This document shows positions 37,864 through 61,555 of a stretch of 64,000 nucleotides of DNA, piece after piece. Each line of letters begins with the position of its first letter. Position 1 is the stretch's first letter. The notes beneath the pieces were generated by a model. That model was not told the origin of the DNA. It saw only the letters and a list, made by a program, of their open reading frames with translations, and ran no database searches. This DNA comes from Buxus sempervirens (Eukaryota > Streptophyta > Magnoliopsida > Buxales > Buxaceae): NCBI GenBank assembly GCA_947561395.2, contig OX387183.1, positions 32,290,853-32,354,852 of the forward strand. Direction: 5' to 3'. The position numbers were made by a program, and so were the translations under genes.

Positions 37864-39041
37864 TGTGCGCGCACGTTATAAACATCGTACCGCGGGGCGT
37901 ACGGGTTCATGTGCGTGCCTCTGGGAGGGCAAAACGGTAATTTGGAGTCTCCACCGCCTGATGGGGTGCAGGCGGACACCTGGGTGCCTAAGCTTGTCTA
38001 TTGGTCTTTGAGATTCTAAGTAAGGTCTCGGTTACAGTCCGGGGAAGTCCGTAGACACCCCGGTCTGCCCCATCGGTTGACGGGTCCCATAGGTTTATCT
38101 TGGTTTGAGTCAACTTGGTCTTTCACTCACCCGTTTCCTAATTCAGCATGCATTTTTGTTAGGTTTGGCGGGACCACCTGAGTGGTGGGGGCCCCTTTAG
38201 TTAATTTTATCTTGTTTAATTAGTGTGAACTGAGTCTGATTGGGTGGGCCCTGTTGGAAGGCCCACAAATTCCTAGGTGGGCTTGGTTAAGCCCACATGT
38301 CCCGTGATGGGCCTCAGTCTAATCCTGGGAGGCCCTTTGGGCTTTGGTTAAGTGAGTTGATTTTATTTTAGTGGCTTAGATTTGAAGATTAAGTGATTTC
38401 CATACAAAAGGTTGGTCTGCATTGGTTTGCAGGCCTCTAGGTGGGCCCCCATGATGGTTGCCAAAGTATTTTTAAATAATCTTGTTTAAATTTGCCAAAG
38501 TGTATTGGACATTTGGGCTTGGGGCCCGTGGTTCAGTTTTGGGCTTGAAAGCCCGGATTCCTTGAAGCTTAGGGTTTGCACCTTTACTTGGTTTGGTTAA
38601 TGGGCTTTGGTGGGCCCGAAAGGCTCTAGCCCTGGGTCTCGGCCAAACCACGCAATTTAAACACATCATTCCACAAATCAAGTTCAAGTGGGCCGCATTG
38701 GGTTTGGCCCGCCCGATTTGGTTAGATTGCTTAAGGTGCTTATTTTCATGCTTTAGGGTTTATTGGGCTTGGTGGGCCCCATTGGAAGGCCCACTAATGT
38801 ACCGAATTGGACCGGTGGTCCATGTCCCATGTTAGGTTTCCGGACGACCCGGAAACCCTCTTGGTTCACTTGGTTTTATTGTAAACATCATAAAAAATAC
38901 AACCAAATCAAGAAAATAAAAAATGGCATTTCTGCCATGTAGCCGACCCTTATGGTCGGCTACACACACATTCTAATGTATCCGACCATGAAGGTCGGAT
39001 ACAAACTGGTCACAAGTGACCTGACCTGAGTTGTTGGATCA
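37864..39041 (-). mobile_element. LTR of the Tat-like family (probable 5' LTR)
   Basis: Its inner end TGTGCGCGCAC at 37864 equals the LTR terminus seen at 30265, and the body to about 38880 is parallel to 30265-31250. Beyond that it differs from the 3' LTR and instead holds the palindrome array at 38939-39041. The outer boundary is not resolved. It could be the 5' LTR of the gag-bearing element or of a relative that recombined with it. Confidence 0.55.
38939..39041. promoter_or_regulatory. Palindrome array, 39-bp spacing, LTR
   Basis: Unit 1 (38939-38963): GTAGCCGAC-N7-GTCGGCTAC. Unit 2 (38978-39002): GTATCCGAC-N7-GTCGGATAC. A third degenerate unit is at 39017-39041. Starts are 39 bp apart. 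The arms of units 1 and 2 are perfect 9-bp inverted repeats. The geometry equals that of other arrays in this window. Confidence 0.85.
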
Positions 39042-40524
39042 CCCTCAACTTGCTTTTTTCGGGGTTTTGGCCTTGGGGTAGTTCTTGTGGGCTTCCTAAG
39101 AGTCTTCTATAAGTTTTGTGGGCCCTTGGGAGGGCCCACATGGGTTCAGACAAGGGGGATCGTCTCACTTGATCCCTTTTGGGGTTTCTCAAAAAGGGCA
39201 AAGGGGGGAGACATGGGAAGTCCTCTCCGCTGTGGATCATGTATGTTAGTGAAACAGGGACCAAAGTGTCCCTGCTTTGGGTTTCCATGGCTCCAGAGAC
39301 AACAAGCATACTTAATCAAGAAAATCCGAGCAAGCAACAAACCTGAATCCATACTTTCGAGACATGCAAATCACATGCTTCTTTATGCATGTTCCAGACA
39401 TTGTGGGTGCATGTGCACATGGGAATATGGTAAAAAAAAGCATGAATGACCTAGCATGCCTCTAACTTTGAATGGAATTAGTGCATGCAATATGTGAATA
39501 AAAGAAGCCAACCACGTAATCATGCTTGGGTGGCACGCATGCTGGAGGAGGGTGAGGGCAGCAGCTGTTGGGAGGGGGTTAGCATGCTTCTAGGGGCCGG
39601 AAATAGTGAGAAAGTGGGGAGGGGGAGCATGGCAATAGGAAGGCTTACTCATGATACAAGCACCACAAGCATAACATACAAATCACACCTAATGAAGAAG
39701 GGAAAGGGGTGCTACTGCTGCTGCCAGCAGCAGCTCTAAAAGTACTGTGCATGCTCACTAATTTGTCATAAAAAGACCTCCTGGGATGTTAAGAGCAGCA
39801 ACTACAAGTGGAGGGAGGGGAGCATGTTAAAATCAGTAAACAGAGAAGATAAGCGGTTTGCTTTCATGCTTTCGCAGCAACAGGAGAGTGAACCCATCCT
39901 AGGCATACCTTGATGAAACCATTTCATATTGGAGGGTGTGGGTGTGTGCTCCTTGTCCAACGTAAATAAGCATTACGATATTCTTTGTTCTGGTGTTTGT
40001 TTAGTAATATGTTTTGGTGTTTAGTAATATTGCTTGTATGATTCGAAGGGGGAGCATGTTCCCCCATGATATCTTCATCTGTTGTATCCCGATGTAAAGC
40101 CCCCTGTTCCCTGTTGGGGATGTTGAGGTAGCTTAATTTAATTTTGAGTTGTGTTAGAAGGTTTTCTGGGGGTCTAAGGATCCCCAGAGAGTGGTTACAG
40201 AGCTTAAAAACCAGTTAAAAAGCAGTCAATCATGGAGTTTGAAGAAAAAACAGAGAATCGGGGGTATGCGCTGAGCTCGAGCGGAGCGCTTTTGCATCCG
40301 CCAAGCTCGTGCTGAGCTTGCGCGGAGCACACGCGCGGTTGGTTTTTTTTTGGTTGTTTCGGTCCGTTGAGCTTGCGCCCAGAGCCCGGAGGTCAGCGCC
40401 CCAGGTCCCTCCCCCTGGACCCAGATTATGTGATTTTTGTATATTTTGTGTATTTCATGATTTCTGCATATTCTGTAATTTTTGTTGACTGTGGGTGACA
40501 TTCTCAAACCGAACCATATGTGCC
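39042..40524. other. No recognised gene; possible LTR remnants
   Basis: Contains scattered copies of GGGGGAGCATG and, at 40262-40390, a GC-rich block with dyads such as CAAGCTC-GTGCT-GAGCTTG (40302-40320), which may be the U3 of the inverted LTR to the right. A TGTAAAGCCCCC at 40093 could be its start. Nothing coding is supported. Confidence 0.4.
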
Positions 40525-41473
40525 AATAAGGTTTCCAGGTGACCCGGAAACCCAACATGGGACTTGGACCCCCGGTCCAATTTGATTTCCAATGGGCCTT
40601 CCAACGGGGCCCACCCAGCCCGAACTATTCAATTGTGCCTAAATAAGATAATTAAAAAGAATTGAGTGGACCAAACCCACTGGAGGCCTACCTAAGCCCT
40701 ATGTGGGGCATGCATGCTTAAATTATGTTGTGATTTGGTCGAGACCAAGGGCAGGGCTTGTCGGGCCCACCGAGCCCACAAAACCAAGCAAGGTTGGGGT
40801 TTCAAAACCCTAACCCAGGAAGTCTTGGGCTTTCAAGCCCAAGCCCAGGTAAAGGGCCCCAAGCCCAAAGCTTGGTCCATTTTGGAAACTTAAGCAAGAT
40901 AAATCCAATAAACCACTTGGCTACCATGTGCGGCCCACCCAATGGGCCCACAAACCAAACCGGCCCACTTTTTATATGAAAATTACTTGAAAATCAATTT
41001 GAACCCCAAAGTAAAATCAATTGAACTAACCAAAACCCAAAGGGCCTCCCAAGCTTAGATGGAGGCCCACCAGGGAAAATATGGGCCACACTTGGCCCAC
41101 CAAGGGATTCGTGGGCCCACCCAATCAGACTCACTTCACTTTAAGCTAAGAAGATAAAATCAGGTAAAGGGGCCCACACCACTTTGGCGGTCCCGCCAGA
41201 CTTTACCAAATTGAATGCTGGAATAGGAATTGGGTGAGTGAGTGACCAAAGTTGACTCAAACTAGGGAAACCTATGGGACCCGTCACTCGACGGGGCGGA
41301 CCGGGGTGTCTACGGACTTCCCCGGACCGTAACTGAGAACTTGCTTAGAATCTCAAGCCGTAAACCAAATAGATAAACTTAGGCACCCAGGTGTCCGCCT
41401 GCACCCCATCAGGCGGTGGCGACTCCAAATTCCCATTTTTACCCAGTGCGACAACCGAAGTCAGGCGCGCACA
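40525..41473 (+). mobile_element. Inverted copy of the Tat-like LTR body
   Basis: Reverse complement of the body at 37864-38880, ending GGCGCGCACA at 41473. It shares the block with GCACCCAGGTGTCCGCCTGC and many GGGCC words. It lies in opposite orientation to the copies at 30265 and 37864, so it comes from a different insertion. Confidence 0.75.
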
Positions 41474-41484
41474 CCCCTCCAAAC

Positions 41485-41850
41485 CTCTACTGAATTCTGG
41501 GTTTTATGGTCTCATTTTCATGCTCAAAGTGCATTGTTTATACCTCCAATTGAAGCCTAAAATACAGCAACTAAGAATTTGATACAATAGGCACTTTAAT
41601 TAGGGGAAACATGCTTGAAGATCTCCAAAATAGCTACTGAATTTCCAGATTTCTTGCTCTTAATTCTTTATGTTCAACATGCATCATTAAAGCCAAAAAA
41701 AAAATCCAGCAACTAAAATAGGGTACAAGAAGTGTGTTAATTGGGGAAAACATACTTGAAAACCCCCAAAAATGCTCATTGAGTTTGCTGGATTTATGCT
41801 CTTCAATTTCATGCCCAAAATGTGGCATTATACCCTTAAAGCAAAGCATG
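41485..41850. repeat. Tandem repeats of about 135-150 bp in a retrotransposon leader
   Basis: Three diverged tandem copies, each with a CTACTGAATT/CTCATTGAGTT start, a CAGCAACTAA segment and an AATTRGGGRAAACATRCTTGAA segment. They lie just downstream (element sense, minus strand) of the primer-binding site at 42075, i.e. in the untranslated leader. Confidence 0.75.
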
Positions 41851-42074
41851 TTATAAAATTCAATATATAAACATGTATGTCAAGACAAGGATCCTAAACA
41901 TGATTATAGGCATAAACAAATGATGCATACATGACCTTGTCCTTATGAACCTTCTTGTCACACAAATCAGATTTGAAATACATCAACATACACCAATAAC
42001 ATAGGCAAAATAGCAAGCATTCAAAAATAAAGAAAAAGCATGAACAAATACACAAAATGGCCTAAATCCACAAG

Positions 42075-42092
42075 TCCCCAGCAGAGTCGCCA
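42075..42092 (-). other. Primer-binding site of a minus-strand Tat-like element
   Basis: On the minus strand the sequence TGGCGACTCTGCTGGGGA starts two bases after the LTR end (42095). Its complement ends in CCA like a tRNA acceptor end. From memory this matches the tRNA-Arg primer used by Ogre/Tat elements. It fixes the LTR at 42095-44566 as a 5' LTR. Confidence 0.82.
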
Positions 42093-44147
42093 GTTGTGAG
42101 ACATGGAAAAATCACCGGGATGATTCCCCTCCGTCATCACATGGGCTCAACAGAAATGGGAGAGTCGCCACCATCCAATTTTTAGGGTGTGAATGGGCAC
42201 CAAAAGATTCAAAAATAAGCAAAAAGAGCTAAAAGGCAAATACTAGAGTAAAAATAACTCTACTTGAAAATCAAATCCAGAGATGGGTAAGGGGATTAGA
42301 TTATGACCAGGGGAAGGTGTTAGGTACCCCCATTCACCCACACAAGGTGGTTGCCAAGTGTTGTTCATGCTAAAAAAAATGAGAAAGCTTGCTAAAATCA
42401 TCAAAAACCTTGGAAAAGGATTAAACACATATGTCATATTTCTACATGAGAAATCCAAATGAATTCCAGATCCTCTTTTATATCAATATCACTTCTGGAA
42501 TATTGCCAATAGATGAAAATCAAAGCAAAAATTGCACAAAACCAAGTTGAGTCAAATCTGGAAAATTCGGTAAAAGATAGAGCCATTTGTCTTGAAATCA
42601 TTCAAATCTAGTTAGATTGAATTAAACCAAATCCATTTGAAAGATTATGATAAATAGAAGACTCATGCAAATTTTCAATCAATTCCAGTTAAAATCTTAG
42701 GAGTTATTCTCCTTTGAAATCTGCTGCTGGAGATAATTAAAAGTGACAAGTGGGCAAGTTTGGAAAATCATTTAGAACAATCGGCTCTATATAAATCCAT
42801 GAAATTTGGTGTGAATGAAGTCTATATGGCCATATTTCAAATGAAACTAGCCTCATACGAAAATTCATTCGGATGTGCCTTGGGCAGTCTCCCTAACAGG
42901 CCCCGAGGATCACAGATTTACCCAGAAAAGTGCTGTTGAGCAGTTCTGAGTAAATCTGTTACCAACGACACAAATGAAGTCAAAAAAATATGAAACCAAC
43001 TGGATTTGAAACTAGACTTCCAAAGGAAAATATCAAAACAAGAATTACTCGAATTGGACATAAAACGAACACATGGCACTCAGTCGAAGTGACAGGTTCT
43101 ACAATCAGGCCTGAACTGACCTATCAACTTCGACAGAGAGGTGTCAAAAATACATTTGATAAAAATTAATGAAATTTTGCAGGCATAAACTAGACAGCCT
43201 CACCTTTCCCATGGCTCTGGAATCACTCCAAAATTCATCCGGACGATGAAGTTACGAGTGTCCGAAGTTGGGGTACAGCTACTGCCTAGTTTCAGCTTTT
43301 TTAAAGAAAATCAATTCAAAACAGTGCTTGGGTGTGTGGAATCCGTGCAAGATAAATCAAATCATTTTCAAAAGATATTGAAGAACCTCTAGGAAGAAAT
43401 TTGGCACAAGTTTGGCTCACCATTCTCTCCGATTGGAAAGAATATGCCAAAAACCCCAAAATTGAGAAAAAGTGCTCAAAACCGAGAGGTTAGACCTAGA
43501 GGTCCTCAATACTTGCTTGAAATCACATTGAAAACCAATAAGAAATATCCCAGAATTGGTTGGGGCTATTTATTCCAGATCTATCACAATGAATGCAATA
43601 AATCTGAAATATAAGCCGAATCCGACAAAACAAGTGCTATGTGTGTGTGTGTGTAAAAATCCATTCTTCAATAATATAACAACATATAGCATGCATTCAT
43701 ATCAATCAAATGGGGTTCTAGAACAACCTAGGGTTCCGTTCCATTATCGTTTCCCTTAGTTCTCTCCCCATTTAATGGTTCTTCGAGATAATCTTGGGGT
43801 ACTTTGAATATGAAACGGTTTTCATAGAATCAAAAGGTTTATTCAACAAGGTTCTAACACTAGGATCAATCCTCAGTCTCGTTTCCCCTAGATCCCACCT
43901 TCACGTTTTACGGCTAAGGGGAGTCTTGAGGTACTTTGAGTAGAGGAAGGGTTTTCATACACACAGATTAGGCCTTATTCTACAGAAAGGTAGAAAAAGA
44001 GAGCTAGACCTAGAATGTAAGAACAGAAAAATAAAGAGACGTTTGAGGCTTACCTGGGCTTCGGAAACAATACGGCAGCGGTTCCCTTCTTCACTCGGAG
44101 CTCTTCGATCTCCAACTTATTGGCCATTTGCTTAAGGAGGAGCCTCC

Positions 44148-44155
44148 TATTTATA
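44148..44155 (-). promoter_or_regulatory. TATA box of the minus-strand LTR
   Basis: TATAAATA on the minus strand, followed by AGGAGGCTCC, identical in the plus-strand LTR copy at 55780. Confidence 0.75.
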
Positions 44156-44321
44156 GGCAAAGGCTAGGGTTAGGGATTGCATGATGGTAGACACAAAATA
44201 ATGTCCAGAGCCCACCAACCTTAACCTTAAGGCCATTTCCGAGATTTCCACTCCTTTAATGAAGGATATGATGGTAAAAGGTGAAAACTCTCGGAAAACC
44301 CTAATTTTGAGCAAAAAGCTT

Positions 44322-44463
44322 GTATCCGACATCTCAGGTCGGATACAAAAGCACCTATATGTATCCGACATATGTCGTCGGATACATTAATAGTTGCTTA
44401 TATCCGACAACTTATGTCGGATATAAAGAGGTATGCTTCTATCCGACTTGAGTTGTCGGATAC
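44322..44463. promoter_or_regulatory. Array of four palindromes, 39-bp period, in 5' LTR
   Basis: Units start at 44322, 44361, 44400 and 44439, exactly 39 bp apart. Each is 25 bp: a 9-bp arm (RTATCCGAC or CTATCCGAC), 7-bp spacer, and the reverse complement arm. Three of the four have perfect arms and the fourth has one mismatch at its outermost position. The array lies between the LTR start and the TATA box, in U3. Confidence 0.95.
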
Positions 44464-45249
44464 GAGAAAAAATGCATATTTCTCAAATTTTGTGCTGGTT
44501 TTAAAAGAAAGAATGATTTTTGCCAATTATTCATCATTTTTATTGTGCAATTTGGGGGTGTCTACACAATCACAAACAAAGGAAAGCAGTAAAATGAGCT
44601 CATGCATGTGGATATTCAAAGAGAGAGCTAAAACAAAAATAGGTAACAAATAAAAGTAAAGAAAGGACATGAGGGATTAATGTTACATTAGATCCAGATA
44701 GAGAGAGAGGGAAGAACAAACTCTTCCTTTACTTAAAGAAACACCCAAAGGAGCTAAAATGAAACCTTAAGGGACTTTGCTATGTTATATCATCCTCTCC
44801 TTTAGCTTATCCTTCTCCCCTTACCATGGGAGTCTTCTCTTAATGAGAAGAGAACAAAATGGAAGTGAAAAGAGATGGAGAAGCAATAAAGTATGCTAAG
44901 AAATGAACATGTAATTCCAAAACATGCTTATAATGGCATGGATTTCATATATGTTAAATAAAATGTGTTGAAGAGGCTTACCTTGGATAAGTGAGCCTTC
45001 TTGGGTGCACTTGGAGGTCCTTGAAGCCTAAACAGCAATTGGAGCACCCACTTTTAGCTCCAAAGTGTTTCCTCAGCTTTCTTCTTTGTTAAAGTGGAAG
45101 AAGAAGGGGATTGGTAATGGCTTGGAGAGGTTTGGAAGAGATTAGGAGGCTTGGAGAGTGAGGAGAGAGGTTAGGAGAGAGAGGATTCGTGGGAGAGAGA
45201 TTGGAGAGAAGAAAAATTTGTGAATCCCTTGAAATGAACTGAAATCAGC

Positions 45250-45256
45250 TTTTATA
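45250..45256 (-). promoter_or_regulatory. TATA box next to the TAACCGAA array
   Basis: TATAAAA on the minus strand, 13 bp from the first palindrome of the array, oriented towards the LTR end. Confidence 0.7.
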
Positions 45257-45268
45257 CTCAAAAACAAA

Positions 45269-45473
45269 CTAACTGAAATCTCAGTTCGGTTACCCTATTT
45301 TTCATGTATAACCAAAATATAATTTCAGTTATACATAATTCTCTTCATACCCGAAATATAATTCCGGTTACATTAATGTCAAATCAGCCAAATCTTGTCA
45401 GAGATCGCCAATGATCAATTTGACACAAAAATCTACAGACAATATCTTTGAACCAAAATTAAATTTCGGTTAT
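45269..45473. promoter_or_regulatory. Palindrome array with TAACCGAA arms
   Basis: Three units start at 45269, 45308 and 45347, 39 bp apart; a fourth is at 45449-45473. Each has a 9-bp arm of the type RTAACCGAA, a 7-bp spacer (ATATAAT in two units) and an imperfect reverse complement. The first unit begins 13 bp from the TATA box. The geometry equals that of the TATCCGAC arrays although the arm sequence is different. Confidence 0.9.
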
Positions 45474-45955: not shown

Positions 45956-45973
45956 GCTGTCCCTCTTCGCTGG
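45956..45973 (-). other. Polypurine tract
   Basis: On the minus strand CCAGCGAAGAGGGACAGC directly precedes the LTR start TGTAAGC. It identifies the LTR at 45955 as a 3' LTR. Confidence 0.72.
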
Positions 45974-48401: not shown

Positions 48402-50068
48402 CTAGTCTCTGTCTCCTAGCCGCTCCTCAAGCTCCCGAATCCGAGCTACTTGAGCTGCAATAACTCCAGAAGCCCCCTCTGCAGCGGGATCACTCAAGAA
48501 GGAAATGACCTCATTTGAAAGAGTTTGCCTGATCCTCATGCTCTTAAGGCTGGCTAAAGCATCCTAGTGCTTCTGCCGCAGTACTCGGACTTCAAAGCGG
48601 CGAGCTTGCCTCTGCTCCTCTAGTTGCTTTTCCATAGCAAGACGGCGGGATACCTGCTCTTCAAGTTACCTCTCCATATCGAGGCCTCGTATCCTAAGCT
48701 CCTGGGCCTCTCGTACCCATATCTGCTGAAGTCGCTTGTGAGAGGCTCTCTCGGACTCCAGGATGTCTTTATAAGTAGGAGCCAAAACTGCAGGAGGATC
48801 TTCGGGTACTGGAGCCTGACTCTGTATCTGCTCCTTGATCCAGAAGAGATAGTCCTTCACATGGGACTCTGAGAAGACGGGGCTCTGCATGAAACAAACG
48901 TAGGACCACTCCCTCATCAACCAAGCATTTAGCTTTATGGTGGTTGGTGAAAGTGGCCCAAGATAGTCCTCGTATCCACTTGGGATTATAATCCCCTGGG
49001 TCGCTTTGAACTGACGAAGAATCCGCAAAGGGAGGTAAAGCACAGCATGACTCAAGCCAGCCAGAACTAGAAAGTTGTGGTCTGAAAAGTTGATCACTGT
49101 CTCTGCATTGGGCTGAGTACCAGGCCACCTTACCTGATCATCTTGGAGTGTAGCCAAGAAAGTAAACCAGCCCTGTTTACCTCCTGGAATGTCAGGACAC
49201 CCCCGGTTGCTCATCAAGATGGGAACCTTCAAGCTTGGGAAGAAATGTCAATTGATCTCCTTGATCTGACTTAGGTGGTCAAGTAACCAAAGCTGCAAAG
49301 GAGGAGGGATATTTCAGTATATTGTAAAGGGAAAAAAAAAAGAAAATTTTTACCTGCAGGATAGGGGCACATGATAGGAAACGCTTCTTCTTCCTATAAT
49401 AACAGTTAGTCAAAGCCTGGTACATCCCTGCCAAAATCATAGGGGCCAATCTCTCCTGCTCCCTAACCTGGCATACAACTGAGATAAGGGCCAAGTCGAC
49501 CTCATCATCATCCTGTGGAAAAAGCAGTTGGTTAACCACTATCAGGGTTAGGGCGTTGAACCTGGCTACCTGGCTTCCTTGTTCTCCCCCCTCAAGAGCT
49601 TTTCAGTCAGAAAAGTCTTGGACAAAGTCAAAAAGGTGTCAGAATCCCCTAAATCCTTCTTCCCTATACCCAGGAAAGTAGAAGCCTCTTTCTTGTAACT
49701 AGGCCTAAGGGGTGGGTTCACTACCTTCTCTGCAAACCTCAAGCCCAGGATAGTCTCAACCTCTTCAATGGTTGGGGTCATCTCATGGTCTCCAAAACGA
49801 AAATGGTTTAGGTCAAGTACCCAATGACCAATCATAGCTTCAATAATCTCCCACTTGAAAGGAATCTTTGGGATAAGCAGAACATGGCCTAGATGGGTGG
49901 AATCCCATTTCCTCTCTTCATCAAGAGTCATAGAATTAATCCACCTAGTGTAGAATGAATCTATCGGGTTATACCTAGTGAGGTTAGGGGTTTTGATCTA
50001 AAAGGTTGTTTTGCAGGGGAGGCTTCGTGGACAAACAACAATGGGGCTGAAGATGATCCGGAATCCAT
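48402..50068 (-). pseudogene. Antisense aORF1, PMD/DUF7745-like protein (copy 1)
   Basis: The start codon is at 50068 (MDSGSSSAPLLF). Recognisable parts are IPKIPFKWEIIEAMIGHW and MTPTIEEVETILGLRF in exon 1, then, after an intron, MSNRGCPDIPGGKQGWFTFL and a Gln/Arg-rich coiled tail ending at 48402. Breaks: a one-base deletion near 49975, an 8-bp tandem duplication near 49560-49576 that shifts the frame, a stop near 49245 (EIN then stop) and several stops in the tail. The IEALIGHW...F.F...EMTPTIEE pattern resembles the N-terminal part of plant mobile domain / DUF7745 proteins; this is my inference. Its cellular role is unknown. It is transcribed from its own TATA box at 50178-50184. Confidence 0.7.
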
Positions 50069-50177: not shown

Positions 50178-50184
50178 ATTTATA
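50178..50184 (-). promoter_or_regulatory. TATA box of aORF1 (copy 1)
   Basis: TATAAAT on the minus strand, about 115 bp upstream of the start codon at 50068, and 13 bp from the first palindrome of the adjoining array. Confidence 0.75.
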
Positions 50185-50196
50185 GCATGTTTTAAT

Positions 50197-50338
50197 GTAT
50201 CCGATATATCAGATCGGATACAAAGGATCCCCTTCATATCCGACGAACAATGCTGGTTACAAAAGGAACTCTGTGTATTCGATACAACATGCCGGATACA
50301 ATAAAATTGCAGTGTATCCAATCTGATATATCGGATAC
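50197..50338. promoter_or_regulatory. Array of four palindromes, 39-bp period, aORF1 promoter
   Basis: Units start at 50197, 50236, 50275 and 50314. The first is GTATCCGAT-N7-ATCGGATAC with perfect arms; the others have one to three mismatches. Spacer 7 bp, unit 25 bp, as in the LTR arrays of the same element. The array lies directly upstream of the aORF1 TATA box. Confidence 0.93.
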
Positions 50339-50542
50339 AAGGAAAAAAGCAAAAAAAAAAAAAAAAAAGAGAAAAGGGAGAAAAATCTGAATTTTTTACC
50401 CGTTTCACTTGTGTACAAGTTATAATTGCATAAAAATAAGAAGGAAAAGAGGGCAAGACGAGAGAGAATAAATAAAAAAGTTTTTTTCATATATAAGCAA
50501 GTCTCTTTGTACAATGATAATGTAAAAAACAGAAATCCTAAT

Positions 50543-53378
50543 CTACTGCTCCTGCACAGGATCACCTCGGCGTCCTCTACCCCGTGCTCCTCTACGGCCT
50601 TTCCTTCAGGATGGTCGGCGCCTAGAATATGCCAGAAGGCGCTTGGCCATGTAGCGCGGTCTCCGGCCCACAATGGATTGAAGCTGATACTCCAAGCAGT
50701 AGTCCGAAAGGTCAGGAGGCGGGTCAAGAGTAGAATCTAGTGAGGAAGCCTTAGGCTCAGCAGGAACCGGCTCAACTGGACCCCCAGCCACAGCGGTCTC
50801 CCCTCCTGCAGCTCCAGAAGGCCCAGCAGTAGCAGAAGAAGGGCCGGGAACAGAAATATCTGGGTCAATGGGAATGAAGTCAGAAATTGAAGCGTCGAAA
50901 TAAACCAACGAGAGGAAATTAAAGAAAACTTACCAGGGACCTCAGGAGTAGGATCAGGAGCCGCCACAGGAGATGAAGTGCCGGCAAGGTTCGCAGGAGC
51001 AGCAGAAACCGTAGATACAACCGGGTCGGCAATCGGAATGTCTACAGGATCCGCAGGAGCACTAGGATCCGCAGGAGCAGCAAGTGCAGGAGATGCAATA
51101 GGATCAGGAACAGCAGGGCGTCATCAGGATCAGCAGCTCGAGCCGGAGATGGATCAGGAACAGGAAAATCGGGCTCAAAGGCAGCATCCTAATCTAGGAC
51201 TGGACCCTGCAAAAGCCAAAACAGTTCATATCAGAACAACAGAAACATGGAAATGAAAGAGATAAAATTATAAAGAACTAGATACCTGGCTAGCCCTAAG
51301 CTCAGCAATTTGAGCCTCCAGCTCTCTGATCCGGGCATCTCTCTGGGCCACAACCGCATCATGCTCGGCAATCAAATCATCCACAGCGGCCCACTGACTC
51401 AGGAACCGGTCCCGAAGAGCATTCAGCTCATATACCTGCCAACAAGAGCGGAATTAGAGTCATGAATACAGAATTGAAGGAAATGAGATGAAAAATGAAG
51501 ATCACAAAACTCATAGTATCATCATGGATCCGGATATAGATCCCGCCAATCTCTGTCACTCCAGCACAGGTGGGTCAATCCATCAAGCGCCCAATGGATA
51601 CTCTTTGGATCCACTCATCATAATCCCCAGCCACAGTAAGCACCTCGGCATCCTCCCACTTATCAAACTGGGCGACATCAAATCCGGGCAGGAGGATAGT
51701 AGGGCCAATGGGGGGCGGAGGAACCGGGATATGAGGGACGCTGGTGTACTGAAAGTACAGGCGCTCGCTTAAGTACACAATCCTACCAAGTCTCCCAATG
51801 AAACATTGGTAGGACTGGTGTCGCACATCTCGCTCAAAAGCGTCCTGCACCATCTCCTGACGAGCAACCTTGTCATCCACATCCTCGAAGCGGGCCAGTA
51901 TCAGCTGCAATCACAATAAAAGTTGTCAGATGCAAGGGTAGTATTAAAGAAAAGAGAATATTGAAAGGAGAGGAAAATTTACATCAGAACAGCGAGAGCG
52001 ATCTAAGTGCGCCCGGGCCGATCGGGGCTGGCTCCTATCTGCGTCCCTCTCAAGAACAGACCACCGTATGGCTACGGGGAACGCTGTAGCATCGGGCAAG
52101 GGAGAAGGGCGGAAGTAGGTCATATATGAATACATGAATATCTGGCAAGGAAAGAAAATAAGTTAGAAGGATTTCAAGGAGTTAAGTCAAAATATTCCTT
52201 ACTTGTAAGATCTGCCAAAAGAATCGGCAGTTGATACCATCTCCCCTCGGGGCGGCCAGACCTCGGACAACTCGACTCAGTCCAGCTAATATAGTCCCAT
52301 ATATCAATCGACCCCATGCAAGCCGCCTGGTCTGCCGAAGATCCCTCAGGGCATCCAAGAAGACAGGACTGACCGACGTCGTATCCTCCTGGAAAAAGCA
52401 GCTACCCAGCATCAACAGGAAGACCCGTCGAAATAGAGGGACGAAACCGTCATCAGCCTTAGCGATAATAGCGTGCCTCCGGTCAGGGTGATTAGCAATG
52501 CTGCCGCGCAACCAACTGATAGAAATCCGTCCACTCCTGCCATCCCAAGCATCCTCTAGAAGAGGCTCGTACCCTAACAGAGCGCTAATATCCGCAACTG
52601 AAGGACGCTCCATCTCTATAGTCCTACCCGTCAAAGGGATGCCAGTGAGCATGACGAAATCTGAAGGACGAATCCCCAGCTCAACATCCGGCAAATGAAA
52701 GGACTATGTGTCAGGAAAGTACCGCTCCAACATAGCAAAGATGAGAGGGTGATCAGCTTGGAATGATGGAATGAGCAGAAAATGGTCAAAACGGCATCTG
52801 CGAAACTCCCGTCTGAGTCCGGGAGATAGGGTCTGATACAGCTCGAAGAACCTCCCCCAACTACCTCTCAGATGAGAAGGGGGATACTGAAGGGGAAGAT
52901 CTGCTTGGACACACATCGACGGATGATGATCCAACCCACTGAGAAGCTCAGTGTCCTGAACAGATGCTCGCAACGCCTCAGAGAATACCAACCGGAACCC
53001 CCTAGCATCACCTCCAAGGATCGGATCCTAAACCGCACCTCTGGCTCTGACACGTCCTTGGCCTCTGCCACGGCCTCCCTCACCCTCAAGGGCCTGATCC
53101 TGAACTCTGCCTCGGCCTTTGCCCCGACCTCGAGCAGGAGCAACAACGGGCTAAAATTCAAAAAAGAAATATGAAGGTTTGTGTAGAGAGAGAATGGAAG
53201 GAGGGAAAAGAAGAATTTAAAAGCCTACCTCAGCAGAACCCTCTCCAGAGCCCTCTCTGGAATCATCCAGCGGCTCCGACAGGGTAGCACTGGAACTCGC
53301 CTCTGTCCGAGCCCGTGAAGTGGAGGGCTGATCAGCAAGGTCAGCCTCCTCTCGAACACGGGAACGACTCCTAGCCAT
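50543..53378 (-). pseudogene. Antisense aORF2, plant mobile domain protein (copy 1)
   Basis: Coding exons read in phase: 53229-53378, 52203-53150, 51983-52141, from 51904, then two or three C-terminal exons to about 50543. The N-terminus is MARSRSRVREEADLADQPST, followed by GRGKGRGR. The domain has the pattern GIRPSDFVMLTGIPLTGRT, later WLRG, then FRRVFLLMLGSCFF, and LAWGRLIYGTILAGLSR near the end. This matches the plant mobile domain (aminotransferase-like PMD) fold. After it come a coiled coil (VYELNALRDRFLSQ) and an acidic Ala/Pro-rich tail. In-frame stops occur after GAV (about 53030), after FPDT (about 52709), after RLMD (about 51573) and after GPVLD. Host PMD proteins (MAIL1/MAIN) act in silencing and genome stability; whether this element protein does is inference. 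Confidence 0.75.
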
Positions 53379-54381
53379 CTACAAGACACAGGGAAGTGTT
53401 TTATGAATTTCAGTTCATATTTATAATGAATCTTACCCTGCTTTTGGATTTAGTTTTCGGTTCAAATGCATTAGGAATCTTATATGATTTTTTTCAAAAT
53501 TATCATGAATTGTGTCTCGAGGGTATTTTATCTCATTTTTATCTGTTTCAGTTCAAATTTTTTTTTTTTGAAATGATTGATATTTCTATTTGGTAAAATC
53601 CTGATTCTAAAGCTTTTAAGGATATCTACAAGGATTAATATTTGCTAAATTATTTCAGGACTGCTACATGCAAAAGGTCTTAGTTGATCAAAGATCAAAG
53701 CAACTGTAGAGTCCAATGGCCAATCATGGAAAGGTTTTGGTGGTTGAAGCACCACATTGATCAAAAGTATACTAAAGTCAAGGCAGATTGCAAGAAAAAT
53801 AACAAGTCATGGCATGATATTTGGATCAAATTTGAAGATGAGCATGTTTCCATTAAAGCATTGGAAAGGCACAATCCAAAAAAAGAAAAGAAAAAGAGAG
53901 CATACAGTTCAAAATGAAATAAGCAATCTAGTGGGAGATCACCACCAACAGCAAATCAGGATTCAAGACAAAGAAAAAGTTTTTTGGCAGCATGGTATTA
54001 GCAGCATATCATTCGAAAAATCATGCAATTTAGCCTCCACTGGCAGACAGCTCAAGAATTGGCAGGATCAATTTGGAAGTCAAAGCAAATTGTAGAAGAA
54101 AAAAAGAAAAGAAGAATAGCATGGTATTTACAATTCAAAAGTAATTAATTCGGTTAGAATTCCTCATCGGCAGAAATTCCAATCAATGCGAGTGAGAGTC
54201 ATAGCATCACAAAAATTGAAGCATTGCAATTCAAAAAAAATGAATCGTGGTTTGTTCAAAACAACCAAGGCAATTGAGAGACTCGGTGAACAAAAATTCA
54301 TCAAAGCATTAAGCTCAAGCTTTGCAGAAATTCCGGAACAAAGTTGCTCGAAATGGGGAACCAACATGGATAATCACTCAC

Positions 54382-54744
54382 TTTCAGGAACAGTAGAGAA
54401 ATGGGCGACTGATGGCAAACTGGAAATCGGATGTGAGAGGAACGTCACCTAGGTCGCCGGAACACCAATGGAGTATCACCGGAGCTGGCACGACGGCGTC
54501 GGATGATGAAGTTACCAGAAGTCAGAGCCGAACTAGGGCTCGACAAATGAATCTTGAGCGTTGGAAGTCGTCGGACTTAGCAAAGTGGTCGCCGGCAGCA
54601 ATAGAAGTCGTCGGGGTTCAGGAAAGTCGCCGGAGAAGAAAGAAATCAAGTGTTGCCGTCGAAGGAGATAAAGCTTGTATCTGGTCTGAGTATTCGGAGA
54701 AGAAGAAAAGAAATGAAGAGTCGCGGTTGCTTGCGATTAAATAA
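54382..54744 (-). other. Probable noncoding first exon of aORF2
   Basis: A 5'-leader-like stretch of plant-like composition lies between the palindrome array at 54753 and a CCTGAAA/GTGAGT donor at 54381. The matching acceptor (TTGTAG) is directly before the ATG at 53378. The implied intron is 1003 bp. The transcription start is not mapped. Confidence 0.5.
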
Positions 54745-54752
54745 AAACATGT

Positions 54753-54816
54753 GTATCCGACGAAGCATGTCGAATACAAATAGAGGTCTTCTTATCCGAC
54801 CAAATATGTCGGATAC
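54753..54816. promoter_or_regulatory. Two palindromes, 39-bp spacing, aORF2 promoter
   Basis: Units at 54753-54777 (GTATCCGAC-N7-GTCGAATAC) and 54792-54816 (TTATCCGAC-N7-GTCGGATAC), start-to-start 39 bp. They sit upstream of the inferred first exon of aORF2, as the arrays do at the LTR and aORF1 promoters. Confidence 0.88.
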
Positions 54817-54975
54817 AAAAGAAAAATAGAAAAAAAAAAAAGAAAAAAAAAGAAAATAAAGAAAAAGGAAAAGAGAAAAAGAAAAAAGAAAAAGGAAAAG
54901 GAAAAAAGAAAAAAAAAAGAGGAAAAGAAAAGAAAAAAATGCAAAAAACAAGAAAAAAAAGAAAAAAGGGTGCTA
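54817..54975. repeat. Purine-only tract, (GAAAA)-like
   Basis: About 150 bp that are nearly all A and G on the plus strand. The large Phe-rich open frame on the minus strand here is only its complement. It could form unusual DNA structure but may be simple expansion. Confidence 0.9.
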
Positions 54976-55353
54976 CAAAGTCTGCTATTTTCACAAAAAA
55001 CCCTATTTTTGGCTTAAAGTCCACGTCATAGCCACGAGAGCTTAGTGGAATTTAGGACAACTTGGGGGGAAATGTGTTGGTCAAAAGGAAAATATTCACT
55101 CAATTTTTAACTTGGTTTGATAAAAAATCAGTTTTCAAAAATCTTATTTTGGGCTTAAAATCCACTTCATAGCCACGAGAGCTCAGTGGAATTTAAGACA
55201 TCTTGGAGAGATGCCCCCCTTAAAGTTAGGGCTTTTTGGCAAATCTTCACCCAAAAATTATATTTGAAAAATTGAATTGAACCAAGCAAATCATGGTTAA
55301 GGGAGTGCAATTAGGCTTGTCTAATCTTTGCAGCTTATTGCTTTGCAACTCTC
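54976..55353 (+). other. Spacer before the polypurine tract
   Basis: Noncoding. It contains two near copies of a phrase starting GGCTTAAA(A/G)TCCAC followed by CATAGCCACGAGAGCT, about 140 bp apart (near 55012 and 55153). Confidence 0.6.
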
Positions 55354-55368
55354 GCAAAGAGGGGCAGT
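55354..55368 (+). other. Polypurine tract
   Basis: GCAAAGAGGGGCAGT directly precedes the LTR start TGTAGATACCCCC at 55369, which identifies it as the 3' LTR of copy 1. Confidence 0.82.
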
Positions 55369-55471
55369 TGTAGATACCCCCAAATTGCACAATAAAAATG
55401 ATGAATAATTGGCAAAAATCATTCTTTCCTTTAAAACTAGCACAAAATTTGAGAAATATGCATTTCTTCTC

Positions 55472-55613
55472 GTATCCGACAACTCAGGTCGGATACAAGC
55501 ATACCTCTTTATATTCGACATAAGTTGTCGGATATAAGCAGCTATTAATGTATCTGACGATATATGTCGGATACATATAGGTGCTTTTGTATCCGATCTG
55601 AGATGTTGGATAC
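55472..55613. promoter_or_regulatory. Array of four palindromes, 39-bp period, in 3' LTR
   Basis: Units start at 55472, 55511, 55550 and 55589. The first, GTATCCGAC-N7-GTCGGATAC, is perfect; the others carry one or two substitutions. They correspond one to one with the four units of the other LTR copy at 44322-44463, so spacing is conserved although single bases changed. Confidence 0.95.
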
Positions 55614-55779
55614 AAGCTTTTTGCTCAAAATTAGGGTTTTCTGAGAGTTTTCACTTTTTACCATCATATCCTTCATTAAAGGAGTGGAAATCTCGGAAAT
55701 GGCCTTAAGGTTAAGGTTGGTGGGCTCTGGACATTATTTTGTGTCTACCATCATGCAATCCCTAACCCTAGCCTTTGCC

Positions 55780-55787
55780 TATAAATA
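55780..55787 (+). promoter_or_regulatory. TATA box of the plus-strand LTR
   Basis: TATAAATA in the context GCCTATAAATAGGAGGCTCC, 167 bp after the palindrome array. The same site is seen in the minus-strand copy. Confidence 0.75.
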
Positions 55788-57715
55788 GGAGGCTCCTCCT
55801 CAAGCAAACGGCCAATAAGTTGGAGATTGAAGAGCTCCGAGTGAAGAAGGGAACCGTTGCCGTATTGCTTCCAGAAGCCCAGGTAAGCCTCAGACCTCTC
55901 TTTATTTTTCTGTTCTTACATTCTAGGTTTAGTTCTCTTCTTCTACCTTTCTGTATAATAAGGCCTAATCTGTGTGTATGAAAACCCTTCCTCTACTCAA
56001 AGTACCTCGAGACTCCCCCTAGCCGTAAAACGTGAAGGCGGGATCTAGGGAAAATGAGACTGAGGATTGATCCTAGTGTTAGAACCTTGTTGAATAAGCC
56101 TTTTGATTCTATGAAAACCGTTTCATATTCAAAGTACCCTAAGATTATCTCGAAGAACCGTTAAACGGGGAGAGAGAACTAAGGGAAACGATAATGGAAT
56201 GAAACCCTAGGTTGTTCTAGAATCCCATTTGATTGATATGAATGCATGCTATATGTTGTTATATTATTGAAGAATGGATTTTTACACACACACACATAGC
56301 ACTTGTTTTGTCGGATTCGGCTTATATTTCGGATTTATTGTATTCATTGTGATAGATCTGGAATAAATAGCCCCAACCAATTCTGGGATATTTCTTATTG
56401 GTTTTCAACGTGATTTCAAGCAAGTATTGAGGACCTCTAGGTCTAACCTCTCGGTTTTGGGCACTTTTTCTCAATTTTGGGGTTTTTGGCATATTCTTTC
56501 CAATCGGAGAGAATGGTGAGCCAAACTTGTGCCCCATTTCTTCCTAGAGGTTCTTCAATATCTTTTGAAAATGATTTTGATTTATCTTGCACGGATTCCA
56601 CACACCCAAGCACTGTTTTGAATTGATTTTCTTTAAAAAGGCTGAAACTGGGCAGTAGCTGTACCCCAACTTCGGACACTCGTAACTTCATCGTCCGGAT
56701 GAATTTTGGAGTGATTCTAGAGCCATGGGAAAGGTGAGGCTGTCTAGTTTATACCTGAAAATGTTCATTAATTTTTATCAAATGGATTTTTGACACCTCT
56801 CTGTCGAAGTTGATAGGTCAGTTCAAGCCTGATTGTAGAACCTGTCACTTCGACTGAGCGCCATGTGTTCGTTTTAAGTCCCATTCAAGTGATTATTGTT
56901 TTGGTGTTTTCCTTTGGAAGTCTAGTTTCAAATTTAGTTGGTTTCATATTTTTTTGACTTCATTTGTGTCGTTGATAACAGATTTACTCAGAACTGCTCA
57001 ACAGCACTTTTCTGGGTAAATCTGTGATCGTCGGGGCCTGTTAGGGAGACCGCCCAAGGCACATTCGAATGAATTTTTGTATGAGGCTAGTTTCATTTGA
57101 AAGATTGCCATATAGACTTCATTCACACCAAATTTCATGGATTTATATGGAGCTGATTTTTCTAAATGATTTTCCAAACTTGCCCACTTGTCACTTTTAA
57201 TTATCTCCAGCAGCAGATTTCAAAGGAGAATAACTCCTAGGATTTTAACCGGAATTGATTGAAAATTTGCATGAGTCTTATATTTATCATAATCTTTCAA
57301 ATGGATTTGGTTTAATTCAATCTAACTAGATTTGAATGATTTCAAGACAAATGGCTCTATCTTTTACCGAATTTTCCGGATTTGACTCAACTTGGTTTTG
57401 TGCAATTTTTGCTTTGATTTTCATCTATTGGCGATATTCTAGAAGTGATATTGATATAAAAGAGGATCTGGAATTCATTTGGATTTCTCATGTAGAAATA
57501 TCACATATGTGTTTAATCCTTTTCCAAGGTTTTTGATGATTTTAGCAAGCTTTCTCATTTTTTTAGCATGAACAACACTTGGCAACCACCTTGTGTGGGT
57601 GAATGGGGGTGCGTAACACCTTCCCCCAGTCATAATCTAATCCCCTTACCCATCCCTGGATTTGATTTTCAAGTAGAGTTATTTTTACTCTAATATTTGC
57701 CTTTTAGTTTGTTGA

Positions 57716-58750
57716 CCCCATATGAACGGGCACATGCTTGCCAAGAAGATTCTGCGATTGGGATATTACTGATTGACAATGGAGCACGATTGCTATACAC
57801 ATGTTAAATGGTGTCATTTGTGCCAAGTATATGCTGATAACAAGAATGCACCCCCAAGTGAGTTGCACAACATGACATCTCCATCGCCCTTCTCCATGTG
57901 GGGTATAGACGTCATTGGAATGATCTCTCTAAAGGCATCAAATGGACACAGGTTTATACTTGTAGCAATAGACTATTTCACCAAGTGGGTAGAAGTAGCT
58001 TCATATGCAAATATCACAAGTAGCCATGTTCTGAAATTCTTGAAGCACAACATCATTTGTCACTATGGTTTGCCAAGTGCCATAGTATCAGACAATGCTT
58101 CAAACATTAAGAACAAAGATATGAGAAAGATGTGTGAGCAATTTCAGAACACCCACCACAAGTCAGCTCCGTACAGACCAAAGATGCATGGGGCAGTAGA
58201 AGCAGCGAATAAGAACATAAAGAAGATCATTCAGAAGATGGTAGCGAGTTTCAAAGATTGGCATGAAATGCTGCCACTTGCTCTACATGCTTACAGAACC
58301 TCGATTCGGACTTCTACTGGGGCAACCCCGTATTCCTTAGTATATGGGATAGAAGCAGTTTTACTAGTGGAAGTAGAGATCCCTTCATTAAGAGTGCTAA
58401 TGGAGGCTGAATTAGAAGAGGCTGAATGGATACAGTCAAGACATGATCAACTCAATTTAATAGAGGAAAAGCGGTTAAAAGCTCTTTATCATGGCCAATT
58501 GTATCAGAAGAGAATGGCCAGGGCTTACAATAAGAAGGTGAAGCCCTGAACTTTCTAAGAAGGAAATTTAGTATTAAAGAAAATCTTACCCTTTTTGGAA
58601 AACCCTCGTGGAAAATTCAAACCAAATTGGGAAGGGCCTTATGTTGTCAAAAAGGTCCTATTAGGGGGTGCTCTCATCTTAACAGAAATGAATGGAAAAG
58701 ATTTTCCTGAGCCAATTAACTCTGATGCAGTAAAGAGATATTTTCCTTGA
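57716..58750 (+). pseudogene. Ty3/gypsy integrase, C-terminal part of pol
   Basis: The frame begins HMNGHMLAKKILRLGYY and then has a stop at 57770. The zinc-binding pair WCHLCQVYAD follows. The catalytic core shows the D-D-E triad: Asp in MWGIDVIG, Asp in AIVSDNASN and Glu in HGAVEAANKNIKK. A GPY/F module (PNWEGPYVVKKV) lies near the end, which is KRYFP and a stop at 58750. Two further stops lie at 58546-58560. An integrase would insert element DNA into the genome; this one is broken at three codons and lacks its N-terminus and all upstream pol. The sequence joins a truncated LTR at 57712, so the junction is chimeric. Confidence 0.9.
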
Positions 58751-59696
58751 ATGAATATTACTAGGAAATGATCTGAGGCCATATTTCTATATTTCCCAAA
58801 ATTTTCATCCCTAGTCAAGCCAATTCGAACTTGTTCGTTTCTTTTTGATAAACCTAAACGGGACTTACAGTCTTATACTGGAGCAAGAACAAATTGGGGC
58901 AAAGCCAATAGGGGCAAAAAGAAAAAAATAGTGGCAAATGAAAGCCAAATACAAAGAAAGGGAAATGTGATTAAATTCATCATGACTGTAAGTCCGGTTG
59001 ACCTATTTTCACACTTGGAAAATTTTGAGCCTTTAATACCTTTTCTTTCATAAACTGAGTTTAACCTTTGTTTCGTCCTATTCTTAAGCCTTCGGTGATT
59101 TTAGTATATTCATTCAACTTTCAGAGTAAGATTGATGATGATGGAATGCAGAAGCCGGCCCTAGTGAAAACCGTAATTGGCGCTAGGGGCAAAAGAAAAA
59201 ATATAAAAAAAAGAAAGAAAAAAAAAAGAAGAAGAATCAAAGGTTGAGTTGATCATGTGGTCCAAGTTCGAAGTCAGCATGAACACTAGAAATTGAGCAG
59301 ATTAGCAGGGTCAGTCATGGAGGAAAAGCCAGTTGGGGATGATTCTAAAGGTCACAGGATAGACAGATTTGGTCTCTCCCTATTGCTTGGATTACCCTTT
59401 TCATTATTCAACCGGATTTTAATTCCTTTAATTATATGTGATTAAGAGTTTTGGATCAGCTTTCAAAAAAAAAAACTATATTTTGGCCTGTGATGATAAA
59501 TCAAATACTTTTCATAAAACTTTTGTTTTTACAAGCATCTGAGAATTCTGAGGCCAATAATATAAAACCTATTTTTGAACTAAATTCTTTATCATTCCAC
59601 TATTGGAGTTTGCTTTGTATGAAGGTAAGAAAAAGAGAAGAAAAAAAAGAAAAAAAAAGAATCTAAGCCCTATTCCCTAACTGCTCTTCAAGCTCC
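58751..59696 (+). other. Post-pol spacer of Tat-like copy 2
   Basis: Homologous to 47416-48401 in copy 1; both share blocks such as CCGGTTGACCTATTT and GAAGCCGGCCCTAGTGAAAA. Short A-rich and AG-rich tracts occur near 59190 and 59635. No coding region on the plus strand is seen. Confidence 0.65.
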
Positions 59697-61312
59697 CTAA
59701 TCCGGGCTGCCTGAGATTCCAGAAGCTCCCTCTGCATCTGGATCGCTCAAAAAGGAGATAACCTCATCTGAAAGAGATTGCTTAATCTTCAATGCCCTAA
59801 TGTCAGCCAAGGAATCCTGATATTTCTTCCGCATCGCTCGGACTTCAAAGCGATGAGCCTGTCTTTGTTCTTCAAGTTTCTTCTCCATGGCAATGCAGCA
59901 AGACCTCTGTTCTTCAAGTTGCCTCTTCAGATCAATACCTTTTATCCTGAGTTCTTAGGCTTCTCGTGCCCATATTTGTTGAAGCCGCTTGTGGGTGACC
60001 CTTTCAGATTCCAGGATATCTTCATAAGTAGGGGGAAGAACTGCAGGAGGATCCTCTGGTACTGGGGCATGACTTTGCACCTGCTCTTTGATCCAGAAAT
60101 GATAGTCCTTAACATGGGACTCAGAAAAGACTGGACCCCGCAGAAAGCGAACATAGGACCATTCATTCATTAACCAAGCATTTAGCCCCATGGTGGCTGG
60201 TGTAAATGGTCCTAGGAAACTCTCATATCTAGTTGGGATCATGATCCCCTGGGTCGCTCTAAACTGCCGAAGAACCCTCAAGGGAAGATAAAGAACAGCA
60301 GATTTCAAGCCTGCTAGAACCAGAAAGTTCCTATCTCTAAAGCTGATCACTGTCTCTGGATTGGGCTGATAAGTGCCAGTCCATCTCACCTGATCATCCT
60401 GGAGAGTACCCAAGAAAGTGAACCAGCCCTGCTTGCCGCCTTGGATGTTAGGACACCCCCTGTTGCTCATCAAAACAGGAACTTTCAATCTTGGAAAGAA
60501 GCAGCGAGTTATCTCTTCAACCTGACTCAGGTGGTCAAGCAACCAAAGCTACAGAAAAGGGGAGTATTTTAATTTATTTCAAAAGAAAAGAAAAAAAAAT
60601 ATTTCTCTTTTACCTGTAAGATAGGGGCACATGTAAGGAAGCGTTTCTTCTTTCTGAAATAGCAGTCAGTCAGGGCCTGGTATATCTTTGCCAAGATCAT
60701 AGGGGCCAATCTCTCACGTTCCCTAATCTGGCAAACAACTGAGATGAGAGCCAAGTCAACCTGGTCGTCACCCCGTGGAAAGAGCAACTGGTTGACCACT
60801 ATCAAGGTCAAAGCATTAAACCGGGCATCCTTGTCCTCACCCCTTAGAAGTTTTTTAGTCAAAAAGGTCTTGGACAAGGTTAGCAGTGTGTCAGAATTTC
60901 CTAGGTCCTTCTTCCCTATACCCAAGAAGGTGGAGGCCTCTTTTTTGTAGCTAGGCTTTAGGGGCGGGTTCACAACTTTTTTAGAAAACCTTAGGCCAAG
61001 GATGGTTTCAATTTCTTCAATGGTAGGAGTCATCTCTTTGTCATCAAAATGGAAGAGATTTAATTTAGGTGCCCAGTGTCCAATCAAAGCTTCAATGATT
61101 TCCCACTTAAAGGGAATTTTAGGGATGTGTAGGATGTGGCATAAGTGGATGGAATCCCAACGAATTTCCTCATCAAGGATCATGGAGTTAACCCACTTAT
61201 CATAGAAGGAATCCACAACATTATACTTGGTGAGATTAGGAGGTTTTGATCTAACAAGTTGTCTTGCAGGAAGAGATCCATCGACAGAAGAGAAAGGGGC
61301 GAGGCAAGCCAT
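59697..61312 (-). pseudogene. Antisense aORF1, PMD/DUF7745-like protein (copy 2)
   Basis: Exon 1 is 60614-61312 (start MACLAPFSSVDGSLPARQ), ending ...ILQ at a GTAAAA donor. Exon 2 starts at 60548 with LWLLDHLSQVEEITR and runs to a stop at 59697. Intron length is 65 bp. Exon 1 is fully open (233 codons) and holds FKWEIIEALIGHWAPKLNLF and EMTPTIEEIETILGLRF. Exon 2 holds GGKQGWFTFLGTLQDDQVRW, MNEWSYVRFLRGPVFSESHV and a coiled-coil tail (EEQRQAHRFEVRAMRKKYQ). One premature stop follows AREA near 59955. The C-terminus is altered by a small indel relative to copy 1. It is the better preserved copy. The TATA box is TATATAAA at 61404-61411. Domain assignment is inference; the biochemical role is unknown. 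Confidence 0.75.
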
Positions 61313-61403
61313 GGAAGTACCAAACAAGCCAAGGAAAGCAGAAAACGGAAGGCTCAGGGAGTTTTCAAACTTTTAAAAACGTCACAATGACGTTCCCCAT
61401 GAG

Positions 61404-61411
61404 TTTATATA
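61404..61411 (-). promoter_or_regulatory. TATA box of aORF1 (copy 2)
   Basis: TATATAAA on the minus strand, about 95 bp from the start codon at 61312, with the palindrome array starting 36 bp further upstream. Confidence 0.7.
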
Positions 61412-61446
61412 GAAAATTCGAAAAAAGCAATAAAATCCGTATTTCT

Positions 61447-61555
61447 AATACGAGCGTGGCGTGCCTGTATAGAAAGTGTGGATACACTGTGACCGTAAAA
61501 AATTTACGGGCAGAGTGCGCCCGCATTAAAATTACGGGCACCACTTGCTCGTAAT
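61447..61555. promoter_or_regulatory. Palindrome array with TTACGGGC arms, 28-bp period
   Basis: Units at 61447-61471 (AATACGAGC-N7-GCCTGTATA), 61475-61499 (one arm preserved, GACCGTAAA), 61503-61527 (TTTACGGGC-N7-GCCCGCATT) and 61531-61555 (ATTACGGGC-N7-GCTCGTAAT). The unit is again 9-7-9, but start-to-start spacing is 28 bp. The position corresponds to the TATCCGAC array of copy 1. Confidence 0.85.

Follow-up and report, generated by a model that had tools for sequence, protein, structure and literature searches.

Short palindromes that recur at a constant interval beside retrotransposon promoters raise the question of what they do there. We addressed it in one 64-kb stretch of Buxus sempervirens contig OX387183.1 (the window, which sets the scope of the whole analysis), plant-like DNA with the remains of long terminal repeat (LTR) retrotransposons. 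Two of these, elements 1 and 2, contain antisense genes, among them aORF1 of the DUF7745/plant mobile domain (PMD) type. A sequence-only reading had described six arrays of 25-bp units (9-bp arm, 7-bp spacer and inverted 9-bp arm; 9-7-9) with starts 39 bp apart, and a seventh array with a 28-bp pitch. We refer to them as H (38939), F_A (44322), G (45269), O (50197), Q (54753), F_B (55472) and T3 (61447). Our analysis suggests, with a probability of roughly 0.55, that the arrays are promoter-proximal operator modules for a dimeric factor in retrotransposons with antisense DUF7745/PMD genes.

The described unit starts occur in the sequence at the stated 39-bp pitch, but the arrays that begin at 44322 and at 55472 belong to two inverted copies of a single LTR, which leaves five rather than six independent 39-bp arrays. 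The array at 61447 is real and has a pitch of 28 bp, yet its spacer can be read as 3 as well as 7, because 28 = 9+7+9+3; its four units pair at 6, 3, 6 and 8 of 9 positions under 9-7-9, and 7/8 half-sites match WTTACGGGC, a consensus derived from T3 itself, at 7 or more of 9 positions. Counting dyads with at least 7/9 positions paired and a first-arm G+C of at least 3, we found 8 pairs at spacer 7 and pitch 39; 57 local Markov simulations gave none and the other 3 (60 in all) gave one, the simulation maximum at any spacer and pitch being 3. The pairs are split between F_A (3), F_B (3), H (1) and Q (1), which leaves 5 without F_B, and G and O contribute none. Spacers of 5, 9 and 11 at pitch 39 yield 7 pairs each and share the same centres, so that the pair scan leaves the spacer unfixed. 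Unlike the pair scan, a symmetry profile of 16 units (F_B and T3 left out) fixes a 7-nt centre: counted outward, positions 1-3 pair in 3, 6 and 6 of the 16 units, positions 4-11 in 12-16, positions 12-13 in 11 and positions 14-20 in 3-7.

A blind scan for three successive units (spacer 3-12, pitch up to 63; 15 simulations) ranked 44321, 55472, 38939, 45270, 50216 and 61491 highest, with scores from 44.0 to 32.5 and a simulation maximum of 30.0. Another piece of F_A (32.0) and an AT-rich site at 29798 (31.0) follow, likewise above the simulations. Only 55472 and 38939 are best parsed as 9-7-9; 44321 and 45270 favour a different spacer on unchanged centres, and 50216 and 61491 a different register. 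With its two units, array Q could not enter this list. On the pair-count simulations and the blind scan, a chance origin of the pattern is rejected. As to the earlier claim that geometry is kept while arm sequence shifts, the arms do vary from array to array and the 7-nt centre does recur.

Within arrays, arm identity is 0.69-0.93, whereas linker identity, measured in the five arrays that have at least two linkers, is 0.29-0.43. Recent tandem or simple duplication is therefore rejected. Units 39017, 50236 and 50275 and all of array G (45269) are degenerate. Across the 16 units, 91% of cells are paired, and both-side changes affect 12 cells, compared with 3.4 in shuffles (0/500 as high), which is compatible with selection for symmetry. 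The loops of the end units are also shared. First units read AACTCAA (F_A), AACTCAG (F_B and H) and ATATCAG (O), and last units read CTGAGAT in F and G and CTGATAT in O; at 6/7 identity or more, 5/10 array pairs share a loop versus 0.64 expected (p 0.0005; 2000 shuffles; F_B and T3 left out). Q shares no loop with other arrays. The recurring end-unit loops point to shared ancestry of F, G, H and O or to a constraint on the loop, and independent reinvention of one geometry in these four is rejected. The same dyad type is common to LTR F, O, Q and H, and the orientation CCG-N7-CGG occurs in 5/6 independent arrays (this first type and G), T3 being CGG-N7-CCG.

We further observe that the F, O and T3 arrays sit inside larger palindromes of 137-178 bp, a feature that had escaped the earlier reading. 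In the sequence beyond the arms, agreement with the reverse complement reaches 40/70 positions in F_A (21 expected, p 0.0003) and 30/70 in O (18.4 expected, p 0.022). Scores in a window-wide scan with ungapped 66-bp arms and seven gap sizes are up to 53 for F_A, 50 for F_B, 46 for T3 and 42 for O, with everything else, G (36) included, at 36 or less. The predicted fold is essentially one long hairpin for F_A and T3 (both strands) and for O (minus strand); F_B and the plus strand of O keep the long outer stem and form inner branches. In three arrays or more, then, the dyads make up the portion that repeats within a larger palindrome.

TATA-like sites were defined as TATAWAD, which the entire 64 kb contains 157 times, counting both strands. 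A site on the expected strand lies 12-35 bp away from 3/6 independent arrays (O, G and T3), a proximity that is suggestive only. Of the earlier proposal, the placement of dyad-symmetric arrays beside likely promoters of LTRs and antisense genes finds support in O, G and T3 and, at 166 bp, in F, and a dimeric regulator would be their predicted reader. Both aORF1 genes carry an upstream array, although arms and pitch differ between them. Judged by the observed/expected ratio, CpG reaches 1.27-1.76 in 6/7 arrays compared with 0.26-0.52 in four element regions and 0.46 in the window.

In such a module, two to four 25-bp dyads are held at a fixed pitch, for F, O and T3 within the larger palindrome, and one dyad type occurs both in the LTR and upstream of aORF1 of apparently the same element. 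A dimeric factor that recognises a specific DNA sequence would occupy each dyad; adjacent dyads would co-operate along the helix, and the array would load several dimers beside the core promoter. One factor could then control genomic (sense) RNA and the antisense genes jointly, and since all three arm types have a CpG in their consensus half-site, this control could be sensitive to methylation. If the LTR and antisense-gene promoters do share one operator, they would form a regulon, and the array could be used as a probe for its binder. As to the origin of the factor, we lean slightly towards a host transcription factor over one that the element encodes. Sister elements differ in arm type, which speaks against a host factor; the same dyad also stands next to a second LTR family (H), which speaks against an element-encoded one. 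Between the two pitches (39 and 28) lies a difference of 11 bp, about one helical turn; this single comparison fits protein-DNA spacing.

Several observations weigh against operator modules of this kind. The half-site centres are 16 bp apart and lie on opposite faces of the helix (189 degrees), which is unusual for a compact dimer. When both-side changes are counted as pairs, 4 are found, a value reached by 110/500 shuffles and hence not unusual, and symmetric changes are also produced by inverted duplication or template switching. No TATA-like site lies within 250 bp of H or Q, and further matches on both strands surround T3 (seven, one of which, at 61555 on the plus strand, touches the array) and O (two); each F array has one extra match. 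The CpG ratio of H is 0.66, and that of G derives from just 3 CpGs. The membership of O, Q and LTR F in one element is based on collinearity alone, and no related element was found in scans of viral, plasmid and bacterial sequence collections or in a protein search.

The alternative that survives best is that the element itself encodes the factor, as an aORF product with which the arms co-evolve in the way of VANC and VANDAL motifs. This is possible, if somewhat unlikely. The related aORF1 genes (77-78% identical pieces) indeed go with different arms, GTATCCGAC versus WTTACGGGC, and VANC motifs, too, lie in tandem within non-coding DNA and differ between related elements (PMC5735166, PMC10398659, as far as these were compared); VANC21 motifs, however, have one orientation and are not dyads, and the identical GTATCCGAC dyad here adjoins a different LTR family (H). 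The PMD genes MAIN and MAIL1 have been linked to a promoter motif, with direct binding untested in the portion of the work considered (PMC7156037). For aORF1 itself, no solved relative was found in PDB at E 0.1, and an AlphaFold model built from 3 rows (mean pLDDT 38.3) proved useless and was not used. The more specific version, a PMD/DUF7745 protein that binds the dyads at its own antisense promoter and in the LTR and co-evolves with them as a self-contained, family-specific circuit, seems unlikely to us.

The palindromes could instead act as RNA: transcripts in either direction would form a long hairpin, as a source of small RNAs or as a structural part of the genomic RNA. Maize Sirevirus palindromes are small-RNA hotspots according to passages in citing papers (PMC10760457, PMC5311732). 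F_A, O and T3 fold far better than shuffles (z -12.7/-13.1, -7.4/-8.3 and -5.9/-5.1, respectively). When the arms are held fixed, 0/200 shuffles fold as well as F_A, F_B or O, and T3 reaches p 0.04, but for H (0.07), G (0.12) and Q (0.99) the fold stays within this null. F_B by itself has 8 G-U pairs versus 3 A-C mismatches. No clear bias shows on the element sense strand when F_A, O and T3 are taken together, whose larger palindromes hold 9 versus 7 (p 0.80), or in the dyads, with 8 versus 8 if F_B is omitted and 12 versus 8 if it is included; all of these counts are small. Rfam gave no match at the gathering threshold. Selection at the RNA level is not indicated, and we consider a role as RNA decidedly unlikely.

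A neutral origin, in which an old inverted-duplication or fold-back repeat was inherited by related elements and its palindromes were kept by template switching, appears very unlikely. The shared end-unit loops and the nested symmetry would point to such common descent or inverted duplication, whereas the arms are much more alike than the linkers, three arrays are TATA-proximal, and CpG is retained in otherwise CpG-poor elements. Host auxin response factors (ARFs) that bind GTCGG half-sites are a highly improbable explanation and are rejected as sole reader, since the unit layout lacks TGTCNN pairs in the IR7 or IR8 arrangement of the major ARF patterns (PMC10690724, in the part consulted, where TGTCGG is the preferred site), the half-sites are everted with facing pairs ~22 bp apart, and the G and T3 arm types lack TGTC, even though several units read CCGACA or TGTCGG.

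The features on which the proposed promoter-proximal control by a dimeric factor is built are listed in Table 1.

Table 1. Positions of arrays, TATA-like sites, palindromes and retrotransposon features in the window
Feature	Position	Strand	Description
Array H	38939-39041	- (strand inferred)	2 perfect dyads and 1 decayed (39017), pitch 39
Array F_A	44322-44463	-	4 dyads GTATCCGAC-N7-GTCGGATAC, pitch 39
Array G	45269-45371	-	3 degenerate dyads of GTAACCGAA type, pitch 39
Array O	50197-50338	-	4 dyads, pitch 39; upstream of aORF1, element 1
Array Q	54753-54816	-	2 dyads, pitch 39; between aORF2 and polypurine tract
Array F_B	55472-55613	+	same array as F_A, more decayed
Array T3	61447-61555	-	alternating WTTACGGGC-type half-sites, pitch 28; upstream of aORF1, element 2
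TATAAAT near F_A	44155	-	166 bp away
TATAAAA	45250-45256	-	12 bp from array G
TATAAAT, likely aORF1 promoter of element 1	50178-50184	-	12 bp from array O
TATAAAT near F_B	55780	+	166 bp away
TATATAA, likely aORF1 promoter of element 2	61405-61411	-	35 bp from array T3
Larger palindrome around F_A	44319-44466		66-nt arms, 80% complementary, 16 nt between
Outer palindrome of O	50179-50222 with 50313-50356		44-nt arms, 82% complementary
Larger palindrome around T3	61433-61569		67-nt arms, 70% complementary, 3 nt between
LTR F copy A	42229-44566	-	begins TGTAGACACCCCC at 44566 on the minus strand; inverted copy of 55369-57707
aORF1 remnant of element 1, DUF7745/PMD	49569-49997	-	domain match; homology to element 2 aORF1 begins 50048
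aORF2 region, element 1	51488-52709	-	collinear with 62738-63998 of element 2
Polypurine tract AAAGAGGGGCAGT	55356-55368	+	adjoins LTR F copy B; our own reading
LTR F copy B	55369-57707	+	assigned to element 1 as its 3' LTR; terminus without canonical CA
Integrase core (rve), element 2	57773-58546	+	domain match; antisense aORF1 comes next
aORF1 of element 2, DUF7745/PMD, N-terminal part	60572-61372	-	domain match

Elements 1 and 2 align from 47416/58760 to 50017/61270 with 76% identity; the LTR of element 2 falls outside the window. Arrays O and Q and the LTR at 55369 appear to be parts of one element. The two copies of LTR F are identical at 2250/2342 positions (96%) in inverted orientation; they share an end point (42229 and 57707) that lacks the canonical CA, and the flanking sequence beyond it differs. 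Array H adjoins an LTR-like repeat (37931-38879) of a different family from F, and array G probably lies in the U3 of another LTR that starts near 45957. Q may possibly be the promoter array of aORF2, at 2 kb from the recognised aORF2 homology, which ends at 52709; within that homology, 52185-52703 shows a weak PMD match under the Pfam cut-off. An A/G-rich stretch of 150 bp (54817-54968) immediately adjoins Q.

The PMD gene and the layout make Ty3/gypsy elements of the Tat/Ogre type the most likely assignment. An additional open reading frame (ORF) with a PMD, a Tat/Ogre trait, is present, and PMD occurs in 57% of Ogre elements as reported in the part of PMC6317226 that we compared. RT and aRH had no match among the 20 ORFs scanned, a subset of those in the window, and the part of pol that precedes the integrase seems to be missing. 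The antisense DUF7745/PMD genes and the integrase adjoining the aORF region may speak against a Ty1/copia Sirevirus, the superfamily being a provisional deduction. Another retroelement is represented by an ORF with an RNase H-like domain (RVT_3) at 8475-8957 (minus strand). Elsewhere in the window, two arms of ~367 bp (17408-17774 and 18181-18546; 97% identical, ~400 bp apart) form an inverted repeat that looks like a recent fold-back or miniature inverted-repeat transposable element, and 35870-36296 is a tandem array with a 65/144-bp period and AACCGCCACTTCGGAGG-like units.

A scan of the viral_contigs collection for GTATCCGAC-N7-GTCGGATAC returned 1 contig, and a dyad plus half-site at 39 bp returned 1 viral contig and 6 bacterial stretches, GC being 0.58-0.68 in all seven; the hits of both scans are unrelated by inspection. 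In the GC-rich DNA of three bacterial contigs (L003 5847-5904, L005 2115-2172 and L006 6220-6277), TCCGACGC...GCGTCGGA-like dyads occur in pairs at the 39-bp spacing that the search pattern imposed, and these dyads too are unrelated to the plant arrays by inspection. No relative of aORF1 or of the integrase was confirmed in viral_contigs, LTR F had no match in plasmids, and 0/625 candidates scored in the aORF1 protein search.

How do these arrays relate to known systems? In the passages compared, the Grande element shares an antisense gene (gene23) with its own promoter between pol and the 3' LTR, and a palindrome array is not mentioned there (PMC7264820). Retand, to the extent that its description was compared (PMC11963269), has a long region between pol and the 3' LTR, with repeat arrays and with antisense ORFs that are suspected to be regulatory; it differs in that the ORFs are TRP28 rather than DUF7745/PMD, and dyad arrays at promoters do not feature in the parts in question. 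Both papers, in these portions, treat what antisense genes do in plant LTR retrotransposons as an open question. VANDAL elements resemble the present ones in having tandem motif arrays in non-coding transposon regions that diverge between related copies (PMC5735166, PMC10398659, in the sections used), but they are DNA transposons whose motifs keep one orientation and whose binder, part of an anti-silencing system, is proven to be encoded by the transposable element, whereas half-site orientation alternates here and the binder is only hypothetical.

The closest system is that of the Sireviruses, a precedent that the earlier reading had missed. In 13 Sireviruses, palindromic repeated motifs form clusters within the LTR, upstream of a TATA box; the nine that have an ENV gene carry motifs upstream of ENV as well, and the motifs form CpG islands in most elements, a common binder not having been identified in the parts of that report compared (Bousios 2010, PMC2829016). 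Our arrays likewise place dyad motifs upstream of TATA in an LTR (F at 166 bp and G at 12 bp, the LTR status of G being our own reading), have further copies upstream of an additional gene (O and T3, at antisense aORF1) and form CpG-rich clusters by observed/expected ratio, with H the low value; in both cases, as far as the Sirevirus motifs were compared, the motif differs between elements. Half-sites with CGG/CCG may be a further common trait, read here as CCG-N7-CGG in the first type and G and as CGG-N7-CCG in T3. The differences are that the elements are Ty1/copia in the one case and probably Ty3/gypsy with antisense genes in ours, and that our arrays have a 7-nt centre, a fixed 39-bp pitch, larger palindromes and a prevalent CCG-N7-CGG orientation. 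Among the matches listed in the open-access literature, none describes arrays of this kind in Ty3/gypsy. Because the layout matches in an apparently different superfamily with antisense genes, we regard the arrays as a variant of the Sirevirus-like layout. The same layout in Ty3/gypsy and Ty1/copia would make palindromic, CpG-rich arrays a general and possibly convergent answer of transposon promoters to DNA methylation.

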